From Thermofilum sp. (GTDB lineage: Archaea > Thermoproteota > Thermoprotei > Thermofilales > Thermofilaceae), in assembly GCA_038741495.1 (NCBI GenBank), contig JAVYKX010000001.1, forward strand, positions 242,918 to 306,917: a stretch of 64,000 nt of DNA, given 5' to 3'. The position numbers and the translations under genes were made by a program. This document shows, piece after piece, positions 33,234-59,231 of this stretch; position 1 is the first letter of the stretch; each line of letters starts with the position of its first letter. Under the pieces are notes generated by a model, which was given only the letters and a program-made list of their open reading frames with translations, made no database searches and was not told the DNA's origin.

Positions 33234-33293
33234 GCTGGGATGAAGAGCGCTGGAACTGCTGATACGTGACGAGGGCTAGGACACCTGACCAGC
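33234..33293 (+). ncRNA. C/D box sRNA (2'-O-methylation guide)
   Basis: All elements are in order. Box C is ATGAAGA (33240-33246), then a 12-nt guide GCGCTGGAACTG, box D' CTGA (33259-33262), a 3-nt spacer, box C' GTGACGA (33266-33272), a 12-nt guide GGGCTAGGACAC and box D CTGA (33285-33288). The ends pair as a 5-bp stem, GCTGG (33234-33238) with CCAGC (33289-33293). The 12-nt guides and 3-nt spacer match archaeal C/D RNAs, which direct fibrillarin to rRNA or tRNA. By the N+5 rule, targets would be U5 of CAGUUCCAGCGC and C5 of GUGUCCUAGCCC. The targets were not identified. Confidence 0.85.
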
Positions 33294-57381: not shown

Positions 57382-57453
57382 TCCCGTGAGGTGCCTTCTA
57401 CCTCTGTCGGCAGAAATAATAGTTTCCTCTGCTCCGTTGAGCTGTGATAGGTG

Positions 57454-57939
57454 ATGTCCGAGGCAGATGTCCTCGAGAAGCTTGAGCGGATAGTACCGGG
57501 GTTTCGGGGTTACCGGGATAAGGACTTCTGGAAGGAGGATGACGCGCTTATCCGAAAAAGAGTGGCGGAGATTCTCGACGAGGCGAAATTGAGGGTGGAG
57601 CGTCTCATAACGGTTATGAAGAAGAAGAGCGTAGGAGCTGCACTCAGGCTCGATGACTTGAGGCTGGAGCTTATCAAAGCGTCCCAGATGCTCAAGCACG
57701 CTGAGAGAAATGAGGCAACGATTCTTGAAGGAGAGCATGTGGAGAGCAAGGTTCTCGAAGAGCTTGTGCAGCGCGACTACGAGCTGGTAAGCGTAGCGTT
57801 GAGGATCATGGAGAGGGTTGTTAGCCTCGGTATGATGACTGACAGCAGAGAATTCATGGAGCGGCTTAACGAGACTATTGAAGTGGTTTACACGCTCGAG
57901 GACAGCATAAGGAAGCGGGAGGCTCTCGTCCGGAGGTAG
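57454..57939 (+). CDS. Helical protein of unknown function
   Basis: The 161-residue protein is almost all helix, with charged stretches (EILDEAKLRVERLITVMKKK; EELVQRDYELVSVALRIMERVV). No motif is recognised. ATG 57454 follows GTGATAGGTG. It lies convergent to a C/D sRNA gene that starts 2 nt after its stop codon. Confidence 0.6.
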   Translation: MSEADVLEKLERIVPGFRGYRDKDFWKEDDALIRKRVAEILDEAKLRVERLITVMKKKSVGAALRLDDLRLELIKASQMLKHAERNEATILEGEHVESKVLEELVQRDYELVSVALRIMERVVSLGMMTDSREFMERLNETIEVVYTLEDSIRKREALVRR

Positions 57940-57941
57940 AG

Positions 57942-57990
57942 TCAGCCTCTAGTGTAGTCTTCACCCCTCAGCCGTCTCTTCCCTCATCAT
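57942..57990 (-). ncRNA. C/D box sRNA (2'-O-methylation guide)
   Basis: On the minus strand the order is box C ATGATGA (57990-57984), a 12-nt guide GGGAAGAGACGG, box D' CTGA (57971-57968), a 3-nt spacer, box C' GTGAAGA (57964-57958), a 12-nt guide CTACACTAGAGG and box D CTGA (57945-57942). The geometry and 49-nt length equal those of the sRNA at 33240-33288. Box C is a perfect consensus. N+5 targets would be C5 of CCGUCUCUUCCC and U5 of CCUCUAGUGUAG. The terminal stem is weak. Targets were not identified. Confidence 0.85.
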
Positions 57991-58013: not shown

Positions 58014-58021
58014 ATTTTAAA
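58014..58021 (-). promoter_or_regulatory. TATA-like promoter of the C/D box sRNA gene
   Basis: The minus strand reads TTTAAAAT, centred about 27 nt before box C at 57990, within the 116-bp gap after the GlmU-like gene. Confidence 0.55.
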
Positions 58022-58055: not shown

Positions 58056-59231
58056 CTAAGACTGAGCCCGGAGCGTATCCAATACTCCGTTTCTGTGAAC
58101 TAAAGCGGCTGGGCCCACCAGCGAGCCTGCTCGTAGTCTAGCTCCAGGAGCGACGAACACGCCGAGCTTTCTCTTCCTTTGGAGGACCCCCTGGAGAGGA
58201 AGCTCTCGAATAACATCTTCCTCCTCCTTAAGCGAGCTTATCACAGTCACCCTCGGCTCAGCTACGCTGCGAGGACCTAGAACGCTATCCACTATCAGCG
58301 AATAGCTACCCACAGTGGCTTCAGGCTGGAGAACGCTGCGCTTAACTTCGGCGAAAGCGCCTACCACGGCACCCTTCTCAATGAGAGTGTATTCGCGAAT
58401 AAAAGCCCCCTTGCCAATGAAAGCATTCTTGCCGATGTAGGCGGGTCCCTTTATAACCGCGAAGTGGTCCACTACGGCACCCCTCTCTATTATCACGCTC
58501 CCTTCGATGACGGCTGTAGGGGACACTTTAGCTTCAGGGCTTATCATCGAGTACGGTGTGTTGAGTACGATGTACGCGGCGGAGATCAAATCCCATGGGT
58601 AGTCTACCGCGACCCAATCACCAGTCCAGAGCGCTGCTGCAACTCCTTGCTTCTCTACGAGCGTGTTCAGCGCCTCGAAGAAGGAGCCATACCGCTCCAC
58701 AAGCCTGAAAACATGCCTAGGAAGAACGAAAGCTCCCCCAACCGCGTAGCCACCTCCCTCCCCGCGCCTTTCAGAGAACGTGATGACGCGGCCGCCCGCC
58801 ACTGCTGCAGCACCGTAAGACTTGATCTGAGGCACAGGGACAACTAATGCTGAAGGGCTTTCATTCTCACTGTGAGCTTCGAGAAGCAGCCTGTAGGCTT
58901 CAGGTGGTGCGACGATATCCCCGTACGCCAGCATAAACCAGTCATCGCTGCCCACCCACTCTTCCGCTGTCAGCAGCGCTGCCTCAACGCCTTCGCCGCG
59001 CTGCAGGAGAACGGTGGCCCTGCCGGAAAGCCCTCTCTCGGAGAGGAATCCTGCCACATCCTCCATCCCCTCAGAGACCACTAGAGCAGCTCTGCTAACC
59101 AGCTCTAGCGGATTCAGCAGTGCGTAGGAGCAAAGAGGTCTCCCGGCCAGATGGAGAAGTGCCTTGGGGTAGCCCTCCGAGAGCGGTTTCATCTTCTCGT
59201 CTCTCCCCCCGGCTAGAACCACGAGCTTCAT
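58056..59231 (-). CDS. Nucleotidyltransferase with left-handed beta-helix (GlmU-like)
   Basis: The 391-residue protein has a nucleotidyltransferase domain (about 1-230; VLAGGRDEKMKPLSEGYPKALLHLAG, LAYGDIV) and a hexapeptide-repeat domain (about 232-391) typical of GlmU-like acetyltransferases. GGRDEKMKPL departs from the common GxGxRxxP form. It starts directly after the glmS stop (0-nt gap), so the two likely make UDP-GlcNAc from fructose 6-phosphate. Whether the second domain still acetylates is unknown. Confidence 0.82.
   Translation of the reverse strand: MKLVVLAGGRDEKMKPLSEGYPKALLHLAGRPLCSYALLNPLELVSRAALVVSEGMEDVAGFLSERGLSGRATVLLQRGEGVEAALLTAEEWVGSDDWFMLAYGDIVAPPEAYRLLLEAHSENESPSALVVPVPQIKSYGAAAVAGGRVITFSERRGEGGGYAVGGAFVLPRHVFRLVERYGSFFEALNTLVEKQGVAAALWTGDWVAVDYPWDLISAAYIVLNTPYSMISPEAKVSPTAVIEGSVIIERGAVVDHFAVIKGPAYIGKNAFIGKGAFIREYTLIEKGAVVGAFAEVKRSVLQPEATVGSYSLIVDSVLGPRSVAEPRVTVISSLKEEEDVIRELPLQGVLQRKRKLGVFVAPGARLRAGSLVGPAALVHRNGVLDTLRAQS

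Follow-up and report, generated by a model that had tools for sequence, protein, structure and literature searches.

A Thermofilum dual-guide C/D box sRNA predicted to direct 2'-O-methylation at two positions of the 23S rRNA

The closest described systems are the archaeal C/D box sRNAs surveyed by Dennis et al. (2015; PMC4644070), with which the locus studied here shares the order and consensus of the boxes, the guide length, a short spacer between D' and C', and the N+5 rule. One of its two predicted targets, the equivalent of Escherichia coli C2510, also falls in the helix 90-93 region named in that survey as a hotspot. The locus differs in its pair of guides (C2510 and U2684 equivalents) and in its host, a Thermofilum-type lineage outside the seven species of the survey. 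Thermoproteus tenax sR50 has one listed target at alignment position 2783 (PMC4644070, Table 3), which we convert to approximately E. coli 2509 by the 274-nt offset of position 2880 (C2606), assuming no gaps in between; this would lie one base from the D' target of our sRNA, and the D' guides of several relatives address 2509. The other targets listed for sR50 differ. In the open literature searched, we found no published mention of the two exact sites C2510 and U2684. The sRNA is absent from the records checked; its class is well known, and it is an ordinary representative of that class.

The window analyzed here is a continuous stretch of 64 kb that forms part of the 1.6-Mb genome of a heat-loving archaeon. 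Inspection of its minus strand from position 57990 to position 57942 gives ATGATGA-GGGAAGAGACGG-CTGA-GGG-GTGAAGA-CTACACTAGAGG-CTGA, 49 nt in all (Table 1). The arrangement that defines the class, in which the 5' end is marked by a box C (RUGAUGA) and the 3' end by a box D (CUGA), is present and is kept in four orthologues. The initial annotation had proposed a C/D box sRNA on this strand, with boxes, 12-nt guides, and a 3-nt spacer in order, and a motif scan, shuffles, and the four orthologues bear this out. Box C' (GUGAAGA) is one base off the RUGAUGA consensus, and bases compatible with a k-loop are present (G at position 6 of C' and C at position 1 of D', in CUGA-GGG-GUGAAGA). The mature sRNA is likely a few nucleotides longer at both ends than the span from box C to box D. 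The gene sits in a 116-base gap between a nucleotidylyltransferase gene and a convergent gene. A TATA-like box had been noted 27 nt upstream, and TTTAAAAT is found there, with TTTAA at a comparable distance in all four orthologues. Because a TTTAA element stands ∼30 to 34 nt before box C in all five genomes, the sRNA likely has its own promoter, and transcription would proceed from TTTAAAAT; scanning for sigma-70 promoters has no meaning in an archaeal genome.

Table 1. Positions of the predicted sRNA, its parts, and its neighbors in the window
Feature	Position	Strand	Basis
C/D box sRNA, box C to box D	57942..57990	-	Sequence; orthologues in 4 congeners
Box C, AUGAUGA	57984..57990	-	Sequence; GTGATGA in orthologues
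D' guide GGGAAGAGACGG, 12 nt	57972..57983	-	Pairs with 23S UCGUCUCUUCCC
Box D', CUGA	57968..57971	-	Sequence; invariant in orthologues
D'-C' spacer GGG, 3 nt	57965..57967	-	Sequence; orthologues 4 nt
Box C', GUGAAGA	57958..57964	-	Sequence; RUGACGA in orthologues
D guide CUACACUAGAGG, 12 nt	57946..57957	-	Pairs with 23S CCUCUAGUGUAC
Box D, CUGA	57942..57945	-	Sequence; invariant in orthologues
TATA-like element TTTAAAAT	58014..58021	-	Sequence; centered ∼27 nt upstream of box C
Sugar-1-phosphate nucleotidylyltransferase with hexapeptide repeats; same-strand upstream neighbor	58056..59231	-	Orthologue on same side of sRNA in 4 congeners
Conserved gene, 162 aa, convergent with sRNA	57451..57939	+	Stop codon (57937-57939) 2 nt from box D

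The strict full C/D motif occurs once in the 64-kb window, at 57942-57990, and the relaxed motif occurs twice. The second relaxed site, 33240-33288 on the plus strand, has complete boxes and the same 49-nt geometry, as had been annotated. By target evidence, it ranks below the sRNA at 57942-57990; its D guide has no good match in rRNA or tRNA. The D' guide of this second candidate, GCGCUGGAACUG, has a fair 23S match at gene positions 2108 to 2119, with a G-U.

No Rfam family matched in the window at its gathering threshold. In a 161-base search, the models sR1, sR5, sR14, and sR23 gave low E values (0.0004 to 0.016) on the same strand and span, with scores of 17 to 22 bits against gathering scores of 38 to 45 (22.3 versus 45 for sR1, 20 versus 40 for sR5, and 19.1 versus 38 for sR14). 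The boxes align across the whole of each model, whereas the guides are unrelated, so the sRNA is a member of none of these families; scores below gathering are expected because the guides differ. Single-strand folding of the sRNA gave a z-score of -2.87, which we do not count as evidence because the function of C/D sRNAs depends on protein-bound k-turns.

Each guide has a match, in the correct register with D' or D, in the 23S rRNA of its own genome. The D' guide GGGAAGAGACGG pairs with UCGUCUCUUCCC through 11 Watson-Crick pairs and one G-U pair, and the D guide CUACACUAGAGG pairs with CCUCUAGUGUAC through 11 contiguous Watson-Crick pairs. The duplex energy at the best rRNA site is -22.4 kcal/mol for the D' guide (next site, -13.8) and -17.2 kcal/mol for the D guide (next site, -9.9). 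The bases at N+5, a C and a U, are Watson-Crick paired, and the N+5 rule places the D' guide site at 23S gene position 2663 (E. coli C2510 equivalent, in helix 90 near the peptidyl transferase center) and the D guide site at 2838 (E. coli U2684 equivalent), with the two targets 175 nt apart. The sRNA thus very probably directs methylation at the C2510 and U2684 equivalents of the large rRNA, two specific and checkable 23S positions, one of them close to the peptidyl transferase center. The initial annotation had named the N+5 bases correctly as C and U but had one letter of each target wrong: the real 23S targets are UCGUCUCUUCCC (not CCGU...) and CCUCUAGUGUAC (not ...UAG). The guide matches in rRNA or tRNA on which it had made its own prediction depend both exist in the 23S studied here, where each guide forms 11 Watson-Crick pairs. 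In its peptidyl transferase region and immediately behind the sarcin-ricin loop (CAGUACGAGAGGAACGG), this 23S sequence (L003:4061-4400) differs from the usual anchor words.

Orthologues of the sRNA were found in four congeneric genomes (G011, G013, G014, and G016); they are 82 to 88% identical to it and keep the boxes and both guides. The gene neighborhood is also conserved in these congeners on the side of the sugar nucleotidylyltransferase. We extracted the 23S sequence of each congener and aligned it for a test of covariation. At the equivalent of E. coli 2688, the rRNA carries G in the genome studied here, U in G011 and G016, and C in G013 and G014, and the guide carries C, A, and G, respectively. 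The D guide and rRNA are CACUAGAGG and CCUCUAGUG in our genome, AACUAGAGG and CCUCUAGUU in G011 and G016, and GACUAGAGG and CCUCUAGUC in G013 and G014. Each D guide forms 11 pairs with the rRNA of its own genome and 10 with the others, a covariation confined to a single rRNA position, at which the five genomes show three states. No other observation argues as strongly as this compensatory change that the sRNA works by pairing with rRNA, and such guide-rRNA covariation offers strong, purely genomic evidence of a predicted function.

Three other explanations have to be weighed. The boxes are short and degenerate, and they might have come into order by chance. Dinucleotide-preserving shuffles of the window, however, gave 0 sites in 60 for the strict and the relaxed motif alike, and shuffled guides had an rRNA or tRNA match of at least 11 nt in 12 of 4,000 and 1 of 4,000 cases (product, about 1e-6), rates that were computed before any requirement that the match abut a box. 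With orthologues in existence and a guide-rRNA covariation that already contradicts chance, we give a fortuitous arrangement practically no weight. Another explanation is that the sRNA is, or yields through a 3'-extended transcript, an antisense regulator of 57451-57939. Box D does start 2 nt beyond the stop codon of that convergent gene, in agreement with the initial annotation, and a simple scan found no terminator-like site just after box D, so some read-through is conceivable. In all four congeners, however, this placement is absent while the guides and boxes persist: a Band 7 gene and a small ORF separate the sRNA from the convergent-gene orthologue, which is ∼2 kb away. The order there is convergent-gene orthologue, Band 7 gene, small ORF, CinA-like gene (other strand), sRNA, glycosyltransferase, and nucleotidylyltransferase, and the sRNA is directly upstream of, or overlaps the start of, the CinA-like gene, which encodes a molybdopterin-binding domain. 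None of the four intervening genes (Band 7, small ORF, CinA-like, and glycosyltransferase) is in the 64-kb window; the CinA-like homologue of our genome is elsewhere, at C1:161448. Because the adjacency is absent in the four congeners, it is specific to the genome studied here, and the differing gene order traces it to a rearrangement that sets this lineage apart from the congeners. Moreover, conservation follows rRNA complementarity rather than antisense overlap, and archaeal C/D sRNA genes are described as commonly overlapping ORF ends or lying close to them (PMC7994747). We thus find antisense regulation very improbable, and the meaning initially read into the placement against a gene end does not hold. 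The conserved features of the sRNA appear to be unrelated to the adjacency, and its position next to a gene end appears accidental. Since none of the four congeners keeps the antisense placement, we also reject, on their gene order, a classification of the sRNA as a cis-antisense regulator of the convergent gene.

The remaining explanation is that the main role of the sRNA is that of an RNA chaperone, which would hold both 23S segments while they fold; methylation would then be secondary, or lacking at one of the sites. The 175-nt spacing of the targets exceeds the spacing usual for Pyrobaculum dual guides, whose targets are given as usually within 100 nt in the part of Lui et al. 2018 relayed by PMC7994747, and a chaperone role has been proposed for long-range dual guides (PMC4644070). 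Both guides, however, are Watson-Crick paired at N+5, as methylation needs, and holding two segments is compatible with methylation and not exclusive of it. Relatives join the same D' guide to a guide for the 2573-2582 region, which we take to contain the other strand of helix 90; this favors a chaperone, but the change of partner between genera also means that no fixed bridge is conserved. We consider a primarily chaperoning role unlikely.

We are highly confident, instead, that 57942-57990 encodes a dual-guide archaeal C/D box sRNA that would direct 23S methylation, and that its closeness to the convergent gene would be incidental. This reading draws on box anatomy, in-register complementarity, conservation, and compensatory change, which are seen in the sequence; from these we infer transcription, sRNP assembly, and methylation. 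L7Ae, Nop5, and fibrillarin would bind the sRNA at the C/D k-turn and the C'/D' k-loop, and the genome has a fibrillarin gene (G000:C2:26748-27422) adjoined by the aNop56 (Nop5) gene. The sRNA would then pair with the two 23S stretches during assembly of the large subunit, the D' guide leading to 2'-O-methylation at the C2510 equivalent and the D guide to the same modification at the U2684 equivalent. For a lineage that the published RNA-seq survey of seven archaea does not include, it would supply a methylation guide with good support.

The product of the convergent gene (162 aa) had no match in Pfam or NCBIfam. It is 50 to 55% identical to its orthologues in the four congeners, one of which has a weak, subthreshold NCBIfam match to the LIMLP_15305 family; in the congeners, this orthologue precedes a Band 7/zinc-ribbon gene.

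Outside this clade, the same D' guide was found with other D guides. The partner guide in G009, G010, and G015 is complementary to E. coli 2573-2582, with N+5 at 2577, and that in G012 has no clear rRNA match. Further, the D' box lies one base further along in G009, G012, and G015, giving a predicted site of 2509 and not 2510; in G008 and G010, the D' guide is in the 2510 register. Dennis et al. (PMC4644070) describe for archaeal sRNAs both indels that shift a site by one base and the recombination of guide modules. We suggest, tentatively and as a somewhat doubtful reading, that, across the order, the helix 90 guide (2509/2510) has been repeatedly re-paired (with U2684 in this clade and with ∼2577 in others) as an exchangeable module subject to one-base drift, and that the pair of this clade may bridge helix 90 and the U2684 region. 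The exchange of partners together with the one-base shift of register illustrates on a small scale how guide RNAs of archaea may evolve, in what is otherwise ordinary biology.

Three loci in other genomes carry related guides. One of the same genus (L046, G012:C2:753261-753298, plus strand) combines a D' guide in the 2509 register with a D' box that is degenerate (CAGA), and its D guide has no clear target in rRNA; the locus possibly represents a decaying or retargeting guide. In a genome of another family (L091, G022:C55:5084-5115, plus strand), the same U2684 D guide (GUAGACUAGAGG) occurs with a different D' guide. The third (L096, G007:C8:2755-2805, minus strand) has a D guide that resembles the U2684 guide, and the G007 23S reads N at the U2684 site; its D' guide, GGGUACCAAAGC, matches the 23S at the E. 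coli 2493 equivalent, ∼17 nt upstream of the C2510 site, with 11 of 12 positions paired.
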